DNA from: Deltaproteobacteria bacterium RBG_13_61_14
GTDB taxonomy: Bacteria; RBG-13-61-14
Assembly (NCBI GenBank): GCA_001797815.1
Contig: MGQK01000096.1
Span: 9,717-25,797, forward strand
DNA: 16,081 bases
Direction of reading: 5' to 3'
The notes below the pieces were generated by a model, which was not told the DNA's origin, did no database searches, and was given only the letters and a program-made list of their open reading frames with translations. The first letter of the stretch is position 1. Each line of letters starts with the position of its first letter. Shown piece by piece: positions 6,731-14,908 of the stretch. The position numbers were made by a program, and so were the translations under genes.

Positions 6731-8827
6731 CTACAGCACGCAGTTGCACCGGCCCGGCTGCACCTCACCAGACAGCTCTTTCCAGACCGGCGCCTCTTCC
6801 AGGCAAAGCGCCAGTTCCAACTCCGGCTGAACCGAGTGGATGAGCCGCAGGAGAGAAGAATAGATCTCAACCCGAAGGGAAACCGGGTAACGGAGCCGGC
6901 CGTCGGCCGAGCGCTTGGTTTCTCTTGCCATGAAATCGGAGATGGTGTTGTCAGCGCCGAGCTTGCGCTCCATCAGCGCTTTCGCGTTCCGAAAGCTGCA
7001 GATCCCGCCCAGGGTGAGACGTTGCAGCGGAACGGTCGCGAGCAGGGATTGAAAGAACCGCGCGTAGATTTCTTCCCAGTTCTCGACCGGAATGATCGGC
7101 ATCACCACCGCCCGCACCGGGTAGCCCGCCTCCGCGCAGCGCCGCATCGCCCGCACCCGCTCTTCCACCGCCGGCACGTTCTCTTCCAGGCGCGAGGCCA
7201 CCTCGGGCGGGTTGAGGCTCCACGACAAGACCGTATGGCCCTGGTGGTCCAGCTCAAGCAGCCGGTCCACCGCATCGCTCTTGGTCAGGATCACCTGCCG
7301 CGCCCATTCATGCCGGGCAAAGAAAGGCACCAGCACGGTGGAGTAGCCGGTGAGCGGGTCCAGGGCCAGCCCGTCCTGGAGCTTGCCCAGGTAAAAAGCC
7401 GTGGGCCGGGCCAGGCGCGTGGCGGCCCGATCCATGTCGCGCAGGATCTCGGCCAGGTTCAAGTGGATCCGCACCGCGGGCGAATGCCAGAAGCTCGGCG
7501 TCCCGGCCAGGTAGCAATAATGACAACCGTAAAAGCAAAAACTATAAGGCGAGAAATGCCAGTAGTTGGGGCAGGTGTTCCACGCTTCCTCGCTCGCCCG
7601 CACCGCGCTCCGGTGCTCGCCGAAAACCAGCGTGCGTTTGCCCCGGCGATGGCGGAGGAGCGCATCCGCCTCGCCTAAGTTGACCTGGTGGTGGGTCACA
7701 TCCTCGCTCTCGTCCACCCCGGCCTGCGGGTAAAGGGCGCAGATATTTTCCACGAAGCGCCGGCGCTCGGCGCTCGCCCGGCTCCCTTTGGCCAGCACGA
7801 TCCGCTCCACTTCGAACAATTCAGGCCGCACCGGACCGTAATCTCCGGGAAGCGGGTCAGAGGGTTGCTCCGGTTCTTCGAAGAGCGCCAGCGCGCGCGG
7901 TCGGGCCGGCAACCGGGACCAGTCCCCGGCAATGGAGCAGGTCCCGGTCGCCAGGTCCGGGTTCTTGCAGGCGCAGACCTTCACCTTGATCCCCTGCCCT
8001 TCCGCGATCCGCCGGATCCGGCCGTAGATCTTTTCCCGCTCCTCCAGACCCAGCGCCAGCACCATCGAGTTCTCGGCCTGGATCCGCATCTTCTCGGCCG
8101 GCTCGAATCCTTTGAGCAAGGCCCGTGACCATTCCCGGTTTTCCGCGGTCCGCTTCAGGGATCCCACAATCGCCGGCCGCAGGAAGAGCGCGCTCACCGC
8201 GATCTGCTTCACCCCCGCGTCGGCCAGCGCCGCGCACAGGGACTGCAAGCTCTCTTCATCGTCGGTGAGTCCCGGCAAAACCGGATCGAGCCGCACCCGG
8301 GTCTCGATCCCGGCTTGCGCAAGCCGCTTTGCTTGCTCCAGCCGGAGACCAGGCGGAGCGGCGAAAGGCTCAAAGGTTTTTTGGATTTCCGGATCGAGCG
8401 AGATCAGCCCGATCTGGCCGCGAACGCGAGAGGCGTGGGCGCCGAGCAGCTCGAAGTGGGGCTCCGGGATTCTGCCCTTGGTCAGGAAGGCGACCCCGAT
8501 CCCTTGCTCCAGCAGTAAGGCGAGCACGTCGTAGGCGAGGTCCAGCACCTGCGGCACCGGCTGGAACAGGTCGCTGGAAGAGCTGAAATAAACGGCTTCG
8601 GGTTTTTGCCGCTTGCGGGGAAGTTCTTTTTTAAGGCGGGAAAGGGTGTTGGCATAGAGAAGGATCTTGCCTTCGCCCGGATAACTGCTGTAGCCCCGGG
8701 TGTAGCAATAGCGGCAGGCGTGGGCGCAGCCGGCGGTGAGGTTGATGGTCGGAATCCTCTTCAGGCAGGCCAGCCGTGATTGCGAGAGCACCGGTCCCCG
8801 CCTCTCCATCGGCACTACTTCCACCAT
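6731..8827 (-). CDS. Tandem radical SAM protein: Rv2578c-type module fused to a spore-photoproduct-lyase-like module
   Basis: The 698-aa protein carries two complete radical SAM cores. The N-terminal half has GCAHACRYCYTRG with the CxxxCxxC cluster ligands at C34, C38 and C41, then FSSSSDLFQP, as in COG1533 / Rv2578c-like proteins. It ends with a CxCx9C motif (C285, C287, C297) that could hold another metal site. The C-terminal half (about 340-698) has an SPL-like lead-in (KRTLVFGE) and a second CxxxCxxC at C431, C435 and C438 (CFYGCHYCYLAG). Where true spore photoproduct lyases have the H-donor Cys in an E-A-S-C-T-S-D-like context, this protein has YLGKLQDGLALDPLTG, so the catalytic Cys appears absent. 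The start is ATG at 8827, with AGGA 8 nt upstream; farther upstream the frame runs into tRNA-like sequence. The substrate is unknown. Two radical SAM cores in one chain is unusual for this family. Confidence 0.85.
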   Translation of the reverse strand: MVEVVPMERRGPVLSQSRLACLKRIPTINLTAGCAHACRYCYTRGYSSYPGEGKILLYANTLSRLKKELPRKRQKPEAVYFSSSSDLFQPVPQVLDLAYDVLALLLEQGIGVAFLTKGRIPEPHFELLGAHASRVRGQIGLISLDPEIQKTFEPFAAPPGLRLEQAKRLAQAGIETRVRLDPVLPGLTDDEESLQSLCAALADAGVKQIAVSALFLRPAIVGSLKRTAENREWSRALLKGFEPAEKMRIQAENSMVLALGLEEREKIYGRIRRIAEGQGIKVKVCACKNPDLATGTCSIAGDWSRLPARPRALALFEEPEQPSDPLPGDYGPVRPELFEVERIVLAKGSRASAERRRFVENICALYPQAGVDESEDVTHHQVNLGEADALLRHRRGKRTLVFGEHRSAVRASEEAWNTCPNYWHFSPYSFCFYGCHYCYLAGTPSFWHSPAVRIHLNLAEILRDMDRAATRLARPTAFYLGKLQDGLALDPLTGYSTVLVPFFARHEWARQVILTKSDAVDRLLELDHQGHTVLSWSLNPPEVASRLEENVPAVEERVRAMRRCAEAGYPVRAVVMPIIPVENWEEIYARFFQSLLATVPLQRLTLGGICSFRNAKALMERKLGADNTISDFMARETKRSADGRLRYPVSLRVEIYSSLLRLIHSVQPELELALCLEEAPVWKELSGEVQPGRCNCVL

Positions 8828-8865
8828 GTGGCCTGTCCTGCCCCTGCCTACCGGGTGATTCAACA

Positions 8866-8892
8866 ACTGGTCGGAGCGACTGGATTTGAACC
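8866..8892. repeat. 27-bp direct repeat, copy 1 (tRNA 3' end)
   Basis: ACTGGTCGG(A)GCGA(CT)GGATTTGAACC matches 9641-9667 in 24 of 27 positions, in the same orientation. It is the 3' end of a tRNA in each case (CCA, acceptor and T arm). The two copies bracket the toxin-antitoxin module at a distance of 775 bp. tRNA 3' ends are common attachment sites for integrative elements, but no integrase is present between the copies. Confidence 0.5.
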
Positions 8893-8942
8893 CGCGACCC
8901 TCTCCTTCAAGCAGAGGCGCAACCAGACTGCTCTGCAACTAA
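8868..8942 (-). pseudogene. Degenerate tRNA-Pro-like sequence
   Basis: Read on the minus strand, the 3' half looks like a tRNA: GCGGGTTCAAATCC (T arm), then CGCTCCG-A-CCA (acceptor 3' strand, discriminator, encoded CCA). The D-arm segment AGTCTGGTTGCGC resembles that of the intact tRNA-Pro at 9643-9719. The T stem has a mismatch, the anticodon arm does not form a normal 5-bp stem with a 7-nt loop, and the 5' acceptor strand (TTAGTTG) does not pair with CGCTCCG. It therefore appears to be a decayed tRNA or an attachment-site remnant rather than a working gene. It lies between the toxin stop and the tandem radical SAM start. Confidence 0.5.
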
Positions 8943-8956
8943 GAGGGGCTGAGGGA

Positions 8957-9217
8957 CTACTTGTAAATATCTCCTCTTGGCCCGATGGCCTCGATCAAGA
9001 TTGCTTTCTTTTCGGGGTCAACCCGATAAACGATCCTGAGGTCTCCGACGGCGTATCGGTATTTCCCCTGGAGTTGGCCCCTCAATCTCTTGATATGCGG
9101 TCCCTCCACCGGGTTTCCGATCATTTTCTCGATCGCCTTATTTATTCTCTGCACTGACTTAACGTCCAAGTTTTTATAATAGTTGGCGGCCGTTTTGAAA
9201 AGGATAGGCTTATACAT
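8957..9217 (-). CDS. RelE/ParE-family toxin of a type II toxin-antitoxin system
   Basis: This is an 86-aa basic protein. The pattern IKRLRGQLQGKYRYAVGDLRIVYRVD (about 42-67) followed by IGPRGDIYK at the C-terminus is the classic RelE/ParE beta-sheet core, with basic residues of the kind that act in ribosome-dependent mRNA cleavage in RelE. Those functions are known for the family, not shown here. The ParE type, which targets gyrase, has the same fold and cannot be excluded by eye. The start ATG overlaps the end of the antitoxin gene by 8 nt, the usual coupled antitoxin-then-toxin arrangement. The module sits between a tRNA-like remnant and an intact tRNA-Pro. Confidence 0.88.
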   Translation of the reverse strand: MYKPILFKTAANYYKNLDVKSVQRINKAIEKMIGNPVEGPHIKRLRGQLQGKYRYAVGDLRIVYRVDPEKKAILIEAIGPRGDIYK

Positions 9218-9446
9218 TCCGCCTCACTCTTTCCCAGGGGATGAAATCTTCAGCTTTGCCCTTTTTAATCGCCGTCTCAGCCGCTTCGATTTGGGATCGA
9301 AGCTCATGGGAGGCGAGGATTTCGAGGGTGGCTTCCATTTCTTCTTTCTCTTTGAGATATTCCAGGAAATCCACGGCGACCTGGATTTTCTCTGCGGAAA
9401 GTTCCTCGATGGCTTTCTTCGCCTGTTTCTTTAAAGCGCTTCCCAT
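9210..9446 (-). CDS. Antitoxin of the RelE/ParE-type module
   Basis: The 78-aa product has a charged, helical N-terminus (KKQAKKAIEELSAEKIQVAVDFL) and a C-terminal segment ending in IPWERVRRNV. This is the layout of small antitoxins paired with RelE/ParE toxins, in which the C-terminal tail wraps the toxin. The DNA-binding family (Phd/YefM, RelB or DUF2281-like) cannot be assigned with certainty. The start is ATG at 9446 because a very strong Shine-Dalgarno, GGGGAGG, lies 6 nt upstream. An in-frame TTG at 9464 would place that Shine-Dalgarno inside the gene. The pair is expected to repress its own transcription, as in other type II systems, but no operator palindrome was recognised. Confidence 0.82.
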   Translation of the reverse strand: MGSALKKQAKKAIEELSAEKIQVAVDFLEYLKEKEEMEATLEILASHELRSQIEAAETAIKKGKAEDFIPWERVRRNV

Positions 9447-9516
9447 TGATAACCTCCCCGACAACCAGTTTCCCAGATTTGTTCTGGAAGCCCAGATCCA
9501 AAAGCTTCTTTTCTAT

Positions 9517-9640: not shown

Positions 9641-9667
9641 ACTGGTCGGGGCGAGCGGATTTGAACC
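9641..9667. repeat. 27-bp direct repeat, copy 2 (3' end of the tRNA-Pro gene)
   Basis: This matches copy 1 at 8866-8892 with three mismatches. It forms the 3' end of the intact tRNA-Pro, so here the sequence is constrained by tRNA function. Confidence 0.5.
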
Positions 9668-9719
9668 GCTGACAGCCAGCTCCCAAAGCTGGTGCGCTAC
9701 CAGGCTGCGCTACGCCCCG
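9643..9719 (-). tRNA. tRNA-Pro (anticodon UGG)
   Basis: A 77-nt sequence on the minus strand folds as a complete cloverleaf. The acceptor CGGGGCG pairs with CGCCCCG. The D stem is GCGC/GCGC with loop AGCCTGGTA. The anticodon stem CCAGC/GCTGG holds loop TTTGGGA (anticodon TGG), and the T arm is AGCGG-TTCAAAT-CCGCT. The discriminator A is followed by a gene-encoded CCA. It reads proline CCA codons and, by wobble, others of the CCN box. It lies between the glpK-side hairpin and the small ORF upstream of the antitoxin. Confidence 0.97.
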
Positions 9720-11622: not shown

Positions 11623-12075
11623 TCAATCCCATAAATACCGTTCATCATATTCCAATTCATGTTTTTCCAAAAATTTCCGCAATTCATCCTGGAACGACGT
11701 TTTCCGATGGTGTGGTTTCTGATTGGCAATATATCTCCGCACCACCTCCACGGACGATTTGCTCGTCGAAAACGCGCCGTAGCCATTCTGCCATTGGAAG
11801 GCGTGGAAGGATGGCCCCTTGGATTTGATCCATTTCGAGGACACGGCCTTGAGCTCCCCCACGATCTTGCTCAACGGCATATTCTTGGAGAGCACGAACA
11901 AAATGTGGATGTGGTCCTCCACCGATCCGATCATGATCGAGGGGCAATCTCGCTCCCGCAGGACTCCGATTAAATAGGCGTGCAATTCCTCCCGGATCGC
12001 CTCGGAAATCAAGGGCGCTCGGTTCTTGGTGCTGAAAACCAGGTGCACGATCAATTGGGACAACGATTGGGGCAT
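11623..12075 (-). CDS. IS200/IS605-type Y1 transposase (REP-associated tyrosine transposase-like)
   Basis: The 150-aa product has the usual Y1_Tnp length and motifs. The HUH metal-binding pair appears as HIHILF (about 56-61), preceded by IGSVED. The catalytic tyrosine is in VVRRYIANQKPHHRK near residue 116. These enzymes cut and rejoin single-stranded DNA at hairpin ends without target duplication. No TnpB partner is adjacent. The gene is intact from ATG to stop. REP-like palindromes lie on both sides (11464-11568 and 12098-12127), consistent with either an IS200-type insertion or a domesticated RAYT. It separates the ankyrin gene from glpK. Confidence 0.92.
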   Translation of the reverse strand: MPQSLSQLIVHLVFSTKNRAPLISEAIREELHAYLIGVLRERDCPSIMIGSVEDHIHILFVLSKNMPLSKIVGELKAVSSKWIKSKGPSFHAFQWQNGYGAFSTSKSSVEVVRRYIANQKPHHRKTSFQDELRKFLEKHELEYDERYLWD

Positions 12076-12142: not shown

Positions 12143-14866
12143 TTACTTCTCCTGTGACTCGTTTTTCACACCTGACACTTGATCAGGTTTTTTCGCTTGT
12201 TCGCGGAAAAAGGACTCCGTCTCCGCGCAGGCTTTGGCATCGTTGCAGGTTTCTTTTCCTTCTTCCTCTCCCTCGCTCTTACAGGTGTCTTTCATCGGGT
12301 GCTCCTTGGCGCTTTTTGCGGCAAGCTCAGCAGGCGATTTCAATAAAATGTCCCGTGCCTTCGGCTTGGCCCCGTTTTCTAAAAGCACCTTGGCCACGTC
12401 AACCTCGCAGGCCAGGGCCGCAAGATGAAGAGGCGTCCGCCGATGCCGGCCTCGGGCGTTCACGTCCATTTTCCGCTCAATCCAAAATTTAACCGCCTCC
12501 GGGTCGCCGGCCAGCGCGGCGTAATGCAGGGGCGTATTTTTCGTGCCGTCGGAGAGTTTATTATTCAGAATGTAATCCGCCACCTGGGGAGATTTTTGAT
12601 TGGATAAATAAAAGAGATAAGTGAAGCCTTCGCTATCTTTGACGTCGGTTTTAGCCCCGGCCTTGAGCAGCAGATCAGCTATTTCCACCGACCCCGACAA
12701 GGCAGCCGCATGGAGGGGGGTTTGCCCATTTGTGTCCCTTACCTTGATGTCCGCTCCGTTCTCGAGCAAGAGCTTGACACAAGCCGGATTGCCCGACCCG
12801 GCGGCGGCAAGGAGAGGGGTCACAACGTCATGGTTCCGGACGTTGACCTCCGCCCCCTTTTCAATCAGGAACTTCACCACCGTGCGCCTTCCTTTTTGCG
12901 CGGCCAGAAGCAAAGGGGTGTCGCCGGTCGTATCCGCAGCTTGGATATCGGCACCATGAGCGACCAATAGTTCTACCGACTCAATAAAGCCCTCCTCGCT
13001 TGCCAAGTGGAGAGGGGTCTTCTTTTCTTTGACGCGGGTATCTACCGGAACGCCCTCAGCCAGGAGCATGGCAACGGTTTTTTTCCATCCCATACCGGAA
13101 GCCAGATGAAGCGGCGTCGAGGCAGCTCCCGGCTTGCCTCTGTGATCTGCCCCCTGTTGAAGCAAAAAACGAAAAGTTTCCTCAAGACCCAAAACGGTAG
13201 TATAAGCCAAAGGCGTCAAGCCATCCTCGTCTGCTCGGTCAATCTCAACCCCGTTTTCTATTAAGTACTGGATCATTTCCTGGCTGCCGGACAAGGCGGC
13301 GAGGTGCAAGGTCGAACTCCCATCGCTGGTCACTTCCTTGATGTCGCCCCCCTTCGAAACCAGCCACTTGACCGCATCCAAATGGCCCTGGCCCACGGCG
13401 TCGAAAAGAGGAGTTGAGCCTCCATCTTCTTTGGCCGTTACCTGAGCGCCGTGCTGCAACAGCAGCTTCATCATCTCCAAGTTGCCGTCATGAGCGGCCT
13501 TATGCAAAGGGGTTGAACCGGAATCATCCGGGGCATTCACATCTGCTCCGCGGGCGATCAGTAACCTGGCCGTGCCGACTTTTCCCGATCCTGCCGCAAC
13601 GTGCAAAGCGGTTTCCTCGGTGTGATCTCCAGCTTTTACATCCGCTCCCAAATCAAGCAACAGGGCAACGGCTTGGTCCTTTCCTTCCCGAGCCGCTTCG
13701 TGCAAAGGTTCCTCTTTAAGATCATTCTTGGCCGACACTCGGGCCCCTCGGGCAATGAGAAAGCGGACAATATCAGGATTACCTTTTGAGGCCGCCGCGT
13801 GGAGTGGAGTATTACCATTGGAATCTTTCGCGTTAACATTGGCCCCATGATCTACTAGGAGCTTCACGGTCTCAAGGCTGCCGCTTTCGGCTGCCCCATG
13901 CAAAGCAGTGGAACAACCCTTCTCCCTCGGGCTCACATTGGCGCCCTTTTCCAACAGGAGCTTGACTACCGCCACCTGGCCTTTTCGCGCGGTATCATAA
14001 AGAGGATCCTGTTGGCAATCCTTCCCTGCATAGATTTCCGCTCCGCTTTGCAACAAGAACAAGCTGACGTTGACCTGCCCTCGATCAATGGCCAGATCCA
14101 AAGGTCTTTGGCAGTAGTCACCTTGGCCGTTAATGTTTGCTCCCTTCTGAACAAGTAATTGGCAGGCTTCCAGCCGGCCGTTGCCGGCGCCGTAATGAAG
14201 CGGGGTATTTGCATCTTCGTCCTTGATGTTCGCCAGGGAGGGGTCTTGATCGAGCAGCCTTTGGAGCGGCCCGATTTTGCCCAGGCCGGCCAGGGTAAAG
14301 GCGTCGTCCTTAGCGCCATGCTTCATCAGAACTTCCGCCGCTCTAACGTGGCCGTTCCAGACAGCGAGATCAATGGGCCGAAGGCCGCCCGGCTTTGCCT
14401 GCGCATCCACCTGTGCTCCACGCGAGAACAGGAGCTCTATCATTTCCACTTGGCCGGCTTCAGCGGCATAATGCAGCGGAGAACGGCACTGGCACTGTCC
14501 GGGCGGGTTGGCTGGAGCTCCGTGGTCAAGCAGAAGTTTGGCAATCTCAAGATGCCCTTTTTCAGCGGCATAGTCCAAAGAGCTCTTATTATTCTCATCC
14601 GGAAGGTTTACATCCGCCCCCTTTTCAATCAGCCATTGGACAATTTCAACATGTCCGTTTTCAGCCGCCAGAGAAAGGGGGGTTTGGCCGTCGTGGTCCA
14701 GCTTATTGATATCGAGAGGCTCATTGGTATAAAAGGTCTGGACCCGCTCCAGGTTTCCCTCTGCTGCGGCGGTGAAAATGGATTCCTCTTGGTCGCAATC
14801 CCCTCCGACCAGGAGTCTGGCCAAGGCCAATAGGACGATTAACCCGAACATTTTCTTTTGTCTCAT
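12143..14866 (-). CDS. Large exported ankyrin-repeat protein
   Basis: The 907-aa product begins with a signal-peptide-like segment: basic MRQKK, a hydrophobic core to about residue 20, then VGGDC. The Cys at 24 is preceded by Asp, so a standard lipobox is not satisfied. From about residue 25 to 840 there are roughly 25 ankyrin repeats with a regular 33-residue period (G-TPLH-AA-G--E-V--LL--GA-V), each able to form a helix-turn-helix protein-binding unit. The 68-residue charged tail holds three cysteines. Cysteines also recur at the loops joining repeats 3-4, 7-8, 8-9 and 9-10, which could form disulfides if exported. ATG 14866 is chosen because AAGGAG lies 6 nt upstream; a GTG at 14884 is also in frame. 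It starts 42 bp after aroE, so the two are probably co-transcribed. The partner is unknown. Confidence 0.92.
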   Translation of the reverse strand: MRQKKMFGLIVLLALARLLVGGDCDQEESIFTAAAEGNLERVQTFYTNEPLDINKLDHDGQTPLSLAAENGHVEIVQWLIEKGADVNLPDENNKSSLDYAAEKGHLEIAKLLLDHGAPANPPGQCQCRSPLHYAAEAGQVEMIELLFSRGAQVDAQAKPGGLRPIDLAVWNGHVRAAEVLMKHGAKDDAFTLAGLGKIGPLQRLLDQDPSLANIKDEDANTPLHYGAGNGRLEACQLLVQKGANINGQGDYCQRPLDLAIDRGQVNVSLFLLQSGAEIYAGKDCQQDPLYDTARKGQVAVVKLLLEKGANVSPREKGCSTALHGAAESGSLETVKLLVDHGANVNAKDSNGNTPLHAAASKGNPDIVRFLIARGARVSAKNDLKEEPLHEAAREGKDQAVALLLDLGADVKAGDHTEETALHVAAGSGKVGTARLLIARGADVNAPDDSGSTPLHKAAHDGNLEMMKLLLQHGAQVTAKEDGGSTPLFDAVGQGHLDAVKWLVSKGGDIKEVTSDGSSTLHLAALSGSQEMIQYLIENGVEIDRADEDGLTPLAYTTVLGLEETFRFLLQQGADHRGKPGAASTPLHLASGMGWKKTVAMLLAEGVPVDTRVKEKKTPLHLASEEGFIESVELLVAHGADIQAADTTGDTPLLLAAQKGRRTVVKFLIEKGAEVNVRNHDVVTPLLAAAGSGNPACVKLLLENGADIKVRDTNGQTPLHAAALSGSVEIADLLLKAGAKTDVKDSEGFTYLFYLSNQKSPQVADYILNNKLSDGTKNTPLHYAALAGDPEAVKFWIERKMDVNARGRHRRTPLHLAALACEVDVAKVLLENGAKPKARDILLKSPAELAAKSAKEHPMKDTCKSEGEEEGKETCNDAKACAETESFFREQAKKPDQVSGVKNESQEK

Positions 14867-14908
14867 CTTGGACTCCTTCTCCACTCGTTCTAGGGTTGGT
14901 TTTGGTAT

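Follow-up and report, generated by a model that had tools for sequence, protein, structure and literature searches.

The window, that is, the whole stretch of 16,081 nucleotides that was analysed, carries a single intact reading frame of 698 amino acids (positions 6731..8827, on the minus strand, as are all features of this gene given below) with an ATG start, a TAG end and no internal stop; it is present at 100% on contig C96 of the source genome, a draft MAG of 132 contigs. The frame joins two SPL-like radical SAM proteins, a first half designated H1 (residues 1-316; 7880..8827) and a second half designated H2 (residues 317-698; 6734..7879). Pfam matches Radical_SAM within residues 28-192 (two stretches in all) and SPL (PF20903) at residues 361-602 (E 3.1e-33); a radical SAM core with its CxxxCxxC motif is present in both halves (PF04055, PF20903), and the structural models of both match radical SAM structures. 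The initial annotation, made from the sequence alone, had proposed two complete radical SAM cores in one frame, and the intact ORF and the Pfam matches bear this out. The cysteines that it named (C34/C38/C41, C431/C435/C438 and C285/C287/C297) and the stretch YLGKLQDGLALD all lie where it placed them; it overlooked further invariant cysteines, namely C21 in the first half and C419, C610, C675, C694 and C696 in the second. These motif features are not due to chance, since they are kept across the homologues of the first half (n = 13) and of the second half (n = 62). The PADLOC models of anti-phage defence systems gave no match for the fused protein.

The immediate neighbours of the fused gene within the window are ordinary chromosomal genes (an MFS gene, leuS, a toxin-antitoxin pair and glpK), and not the module described below. 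The MFS exporter, which had been linked weakly to the same process, was rejected as a partner because it is not a recurrent neighbour; when 60 neighbour proteins were sorted by family, MFS was not one of the 25 commonest families, and the gene that follows the pair in the nearest relative encodes a phage terminase. Just upstream of the fused gene lies a degenerate tRNA-Pro-like 3' part with CCA (8862-8930, minus strand), which matches the tRNA-Pro(GGG) on contig C119 at 94% over 34 nt and was not called by ARAGORN or Rfam; it could be an integration scar. An intact tRNA-Pro(TGG) is found at 9643-9719, and a ParE-type toxin (PF05016) with a short upstream partner ORF (8957-9464, minus strand) is located between this tRNA and the remnant. 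The window also contains a 150-aa ORF that resembles, by eye, an IS200/IS605-type REP transposase (11623-12075, minus strand) and a 913-aa ankyrin-like repeat protein with a signal-like start, again judged by eye (12143-14884, minus strand).

The two halves and the spore photoproduct lyase fold

H1 and H2 are paralogous radical SAM enzymes of the structural superfamily of spore photoproduct lyase (SPL). The program hhalign recognises the two as homologues (98.8%), and its alignment pairs C285 with C675 and sets C21 close to C419; a joint full-length alignment put H1 rows onto H2 (identities of 14-20%), and the two were therefore modelled apart. Elsewhere, stand-alone H1 is a separate gene of about 330 aa. 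The H1 model (pLDDT 89.1) has SPL as its best PDB match (4fhg, E 1.9e-11), and the best family matches of H1 are Rv2578c (E 2e-35) and PA0069 (E 2e-34; NF038135 and NF033668); these families are single chains, and although they are the closest matches, H1 remains far below their curated cut-offs, with 122 bits vs. 430 for Rv2578c and 119 vs. 360 for PA0069. The radical SAM mobile pair protein B (TIGR04470) likewise stands for a tandem of SPL-like radical SAM genes carried by mobile DNA; H1 matches this model weakly (E 6e-15, 55 bits vs. a cut-off of 410), and no paper on radical SAM mobile pairs was found. The first CxxxCxxC [4Fe-4S]/SAM motif, C34/C38/C41 (8705..8728), is kept in 13/13 homologues, and so are four extra cysteines: C21 upstream of this first cluster motif (8765..8767), also invariant in all 19 rows of a second alignment, and C285/C287/C297 in a CxCx9C motif (7937..7975).

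H2, which elsewhere is a separate gene of about 390 aa, was modelled with a pLDDT of 93.9 and has 62 homologues. The model lies on SPL 4fhc with a VIA Z of 35.8 over 329/340 residues and in both domains, the next family reaching Z 14.9, and this structural match stops at model residue 359 of 381; the H2 profile matches SPL with E 4.6e-38. H2 shares with SplB (PF20903, TIGR04070; 4fhc) the whole fold, the HN and GKxTLV N-terminal motifs, the CxxxCxxC motif (C431/C435/C438, 7514..7537; C431 and C435 in 62/62 and C438 in 61/62 homologues) and the tyrosines Y437 and Y439, which correspond to the SPL relay tyrosines Y96/Y98 (Gt) or Y97/Y99 (Bs) and form a YCY motif that is also frequent in other radical SAM proteins. 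The conserved cysteines of SPL number just four, and the enzyme needs the fourth (C141 in Bs, C140 in Gt) for the return of the hydrogen atom (PMC3742179). In H2, the position of this H-donor cysteine is occupied by K482 (7382..7384), as placed via alignment to the Geobacillus SPL crystal mutants C140S/C140A; the lysine is found in 62/62 homologues, within the motif FYxGKLQD, of which GKLQD is likewise kept in 62/62. H2 also differs from SPL in its additional cysteines, that is, C419, which is absent from SPL (7571..7573; 62/62), the near-invariant C610 (6998..7000; 61/62), and C675 with the C-terminal C694-N-C696 tail past the end of the SPL fold (6740..6805; 61/62); moreover, it does not occur in spore formers, and it is found in tandem or fused with H1. 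Against the SPL equivalog TIGR04070, H2 scores 130.5 bits vs. a cut-off of 400. Since SPL requires Cys140 for hydrogen return and H2 has K482 in its place, it is very improbable that H2 works as a spore photoproduct lyase; the lysine and the low score were the grounds for rejecting it as a true SPL.

The initial annotation had correctly noted that the second half lacks a cysteine at the donor site, and had singled this out as a feature of the fused gene; a reading of the absence as a special trait has to be corrected. The donor cysteine is missing from 12/12 other SPL-like relatives in this and other genomes, including paralogues in the source genome; most of them have glutamate at the K482 site, with the site motif G-E-x-x-D, so that absence of the donor cysteine is ordinary outside true SPL and the norm among SPL-like relatives. 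Judged by the aligned homologues, it is the lysine at position 482 that is the clade signature of H2. The G-E-x-x-D relatives resemble H2 in their core, in the lack of the donor cysteine and in a mostly kept C675 position, but they have glutamate at the site and are only about 30-35% identical; a long, well supported branch splits them from the H2 clade in a tree in which two such relatives were tested. Two paralogues (L002 and L010) also have C419, C675 and the CNC tail. The extra invariant cysteines of both halves may represent a putative auxiliary Fe-S cluster site, and a four-cysteine auxiliary site in each half would be a reasonable supposition.

The whole SPL fold, the strong profile match and the kept relay tyrosines would also suit a lesion-repair pair, in which a DNA photoproduct is reversed by H2, perhaps also by H1, with another residue in place of the donor cysteine; RudS-type genes with a TudS domain, a neighbour family of the pair, are reported to occur in light-responsive operons with DNA photolyases (PMC11417400). 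This reading seems unlikely: the cysteine at position 141/140 is needed by SPL (PMC3742179), a lysine that is invariant in the H2 clade cannot return a hydrogen atom, the score falls short of the SPL equivalog, and the ParB, methylase and terminase neighbours do not make a repair set.

Pairing and gene neighbourhoods

A single scan of GTDB contigs for homologues yielded 80 loci. H1 and H2 are adjacent in seven of these, in both orders and in some cases with broken frames; the order H1-H2 is found at L024 and L085, and the order H2-H1 at L028, L042, L044, L046 and L058. At a further locus (L100, 6004-7032), the N-terminal part of H2 is joined to the C-terminal part of H1 in another frame, as if a segment of an H2-H1 tandem had been deleted. 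The pairing of H1 and H2 is real and above background: H1 is present in 15/32 H2 genomes vs. 1/38 distant background genomes (Fisher 9e-6, phylogeny ignored) and, among 392 Planctomycetota, in 5/9 H2 genomes vs. 25/383 others (Fisher 2e-4, phylogeny ignored), or in 4/8 when the centre genome is removed (p 0.0014, phylogeny ignored). On the H2 tree, the tandem state requires at least four changes. The functional link between the halves that had been suggested from the fused gene gains support from the tandem arrangement in seven loci and in both orders, and from co-occurrence above expectation. The two steps would not be obligately coupled, since H2 genes do not adjoin H1 at 62/78 loci and about half of the H2 genomes are without a detected H1. 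Cultured carriers of these genes include Desulfatibacillum alkenivorans and Planctomycetes bacterium syqfu.

At least one of the listed neighbour types occurs within 3 kb at 34/78 loci, and none at 44/78. A ParB_N protein, either alone or fused to an N6_N4 methylase, is found within 3 kb at 19/78 loci, a type II DNA methylase stands directly beside H2 at 8/78, and TudS lies within 3 kb at 7/78, including four of the seven tandem loci. Two protein types without Pfam or PHROG matches also recur: one of about 135 aa within 3 kb at 11 loci, usually straight after H2 or ParB (examples are L091, 7179-7595, and L103, 7629-8033), and one of 500-600 aa, methyltransferase-like by eye only, that precedes H1 at five loci. 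At L090 (5293-8061), an AEP-TOTE primase/helicase protein (PF22548) is located two genes from H1 and adjoins the protein of about 135 aa, possibly a conflict-system context.

A phage terminase is a neighbour at several loci. Phage genes accompany the pair in its nearest relative, the genome G002, where the gene order is ParB, ParB, a PAPS-reductase-like protein (phrog_424), TudS, H1, H2 and the large subunit of a phage terminase (phrog_38, E 5.5e-36). On the viral contig L105, H1 lies beside TudS among phage genes, in a list that comprises ParB-like, TerS (phrog_4102), terminase-like, portal-like, H1, TudS and capsid-region genes (all but TerS assigned by eye). The source genome has ParB, the PAPS-reductase-like protein and TudS in a row without H1-H2 on another contig (C81; L121, 6887-9121), and the TudS encoded there is 80% identical to that of G002. 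A paralogue of the G-E-x-x-D type in the source genome, the SPL-like protein P0003 on contig C80 (L122, 3888-7688), is encoded less than 1 kb from ParB and terminase large subunit genes; P0003 ends in a CNC tail and carries additional N-terminal sequence that resembles, by eye, a helix-turn-helix; part of L122 is masked as N. Few members were found in IMG/VR (one H2 contig and two H1 contigs), and the isolated phages gave matches of 22-32% identity only; the one examined, in Rhizobium phage RHph_I72, covers part of H1 at 27% identity and was set aside because it belongs to another family. Phage DNA hypermodification pathways employ radical SAM enzymes that act on DNA bases, and H1/H2 are similar to these in being phage-linked radical SAM proteins; unlike those pathways, H1/H2 are accompanied by no hydroxymethyl-dUMP synthase, base kinase or transferase that could be found alongside them.

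The neighbour families are not all DNA-specific: thio-uracil compounds are the substrates of TudS, and the RudS relatives of TudS act on tRNA (PMC10611767, PMC11417400). The pair could be imagined to modify or de-thiolate bases of RNA (tRNA), with TudS and the PP-loop PAPS-reductase-like protein as its partners; a phage that alters host tRNA would be one example. The position of TudS beside the pair in more than half of the tandem loci, the action of TudS/RudS on 4-thiouridine compounds and tRNA (PMC10611767, PMC11417400), and the PP-loop protein in the same operon in G002 are all consistent with such a role; yet the commonest neighbours are ParB and DNA methylase, and SPL, the nearest fold, acts on DNA, which makes an RNA-directed pair rather unlikely.

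The junction between the halves

In G002 (L005/L024), H1 and H2 are separate tandem genes 14 bp apart, the first ending in ...APAQPNLF-stop and the second beginning in another frame; the two proteins align end to end with the fused halves and are 54-58% identical to them. The junction of the fused gene (codons 304-325, 7853..7918) contains no stop and no ATG, and the possible internal starts near it are TTG306 only, plus GTG333 downstream. After the usual end of H1, the junction retains the N-terminal layout of stand-alone H2 (LF...LPxDYxPxRPxxF); because this layout follows directly on the H1 end and no ATG intervenes, the fusion would have arisen when two tandem genes, standing in the same order as in G002, lost the stop that separated them. 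The view that two normally separate chains are fused here agrees with the separate tandem genes in the nearest relative and at other loci. The same two-core architecture, which had been expected to be worth seeking in other genomes, was not recovered: no second fusion was found among the 80 GTDB loci or in about 790 further genomes (392 sampled from Planctomycetota and 400 from Chloroflexota), and the phylum of the source genome is represented by three genomes in the comparison set. The fusion is a local, one-genome variant of the tandem pair.

The initial annotation had treated separate genes in close relatives, with a stop or start between them, as a sign of an assembly error; a stop and a start do separate the genes there, but this is no proof of such an error. 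A sequencing indel could hide only in codons 304-325, since conservation fixes the frame up to W303 and from L326 onwards. A one-base indel within these codons, in a gene pair that truly consists of two overlapping genes, would account for the lack of any other fusion; the junction is GC-rich, with a +1 shift H1 would terminate some 20 codons past W303, and the draft state of the genome, with its many contigs, leaves room for such an error. On the other hand, the frame is clean and the junction shows a normal base composition at each codon position, a separate H2 would have no ATG there and would have to start at TTG306 or GTG333, and nothing positive points to an error, so that we consider a sequence or assembly artefact to be rather unlikely.

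A candidate role in nucleic-acid modification

We favour, with a probability of just under one half, the reading that this gene is a natural fusion of a radical SAM pair derived from a phage or mobile element, and that its two halves carry out sequential or cooperating steps on a nucleic-acid base. Formation of a 5'-deoxyadenosyl radical with a [4Fe-4S] cluster and SAM is established for the radical SAM superfamily; by their motifs, each half is predicted to bind its own [4Fe-4S] cluster and SAM and to generate this radical. The separate genes are often neighbours and stand beside DNA-handling genes, and for this reason the two enzymes probably cooperate on a DNA or RNA substrate. As to the substrate and the order of steps, we infer that the halves perform two radical steps, one after the other or in cooperation, on a base that most likely belongs to DNA; they would form part of a module for the modification or demodification of bases, together with ParB-domain proteins, DNA methylases and the TudS desulfidase. 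K482 and the putative extra clusters may set a product fate other than that of SPL, and the fusion would hold both active sites in a single chain.

The initial annotation had suggested coupled radical reactions on either a nucleic acid or a peptide; the SPL fold and the ParB, methylase, TudS and phage neighbours speak for the former. Peptide-modifying systems often contain tandem radical SAM enzymes and auxiliary clusters, and an MFS gene follows the fused gene on the same strand, but it is very improbable that a peptide or small molecule is the substrate of both cores, or that one half serves only to reduce or supply the other, as neither a precursor peptide nor a recognition domain was found, MFS does not recur as a neighbour, both cores are intact, and H1 and H2 each occur alone in many genomes, so that neither would be a mere donor of electrons or of a cluster for the other.

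The favoured reading, a phage- or mobile-element-derived pair acting on a nucleic-acid base, can be extended with considerable hesitation: H1, H2, ParB, the PP-loop PAPS-reductase-like protein and TudS might constitute an undescribed phage or mobile-element pathway in which a modified, possibly sulfur-related, DNA base is made or removed near packaging, a proposal that we regard as conceivable but doubtful. Hardly any of the many SPL-like radical SAM proteins have been characterised; through the repeated association of H1 with H2, and through their ParB, DNA methylase, TudS and phage neighbours, this one group becomes a concrete genetic module with a testable substrate class. The interest of the locus lies in this uncharacterised module rather than in the fusion itself.
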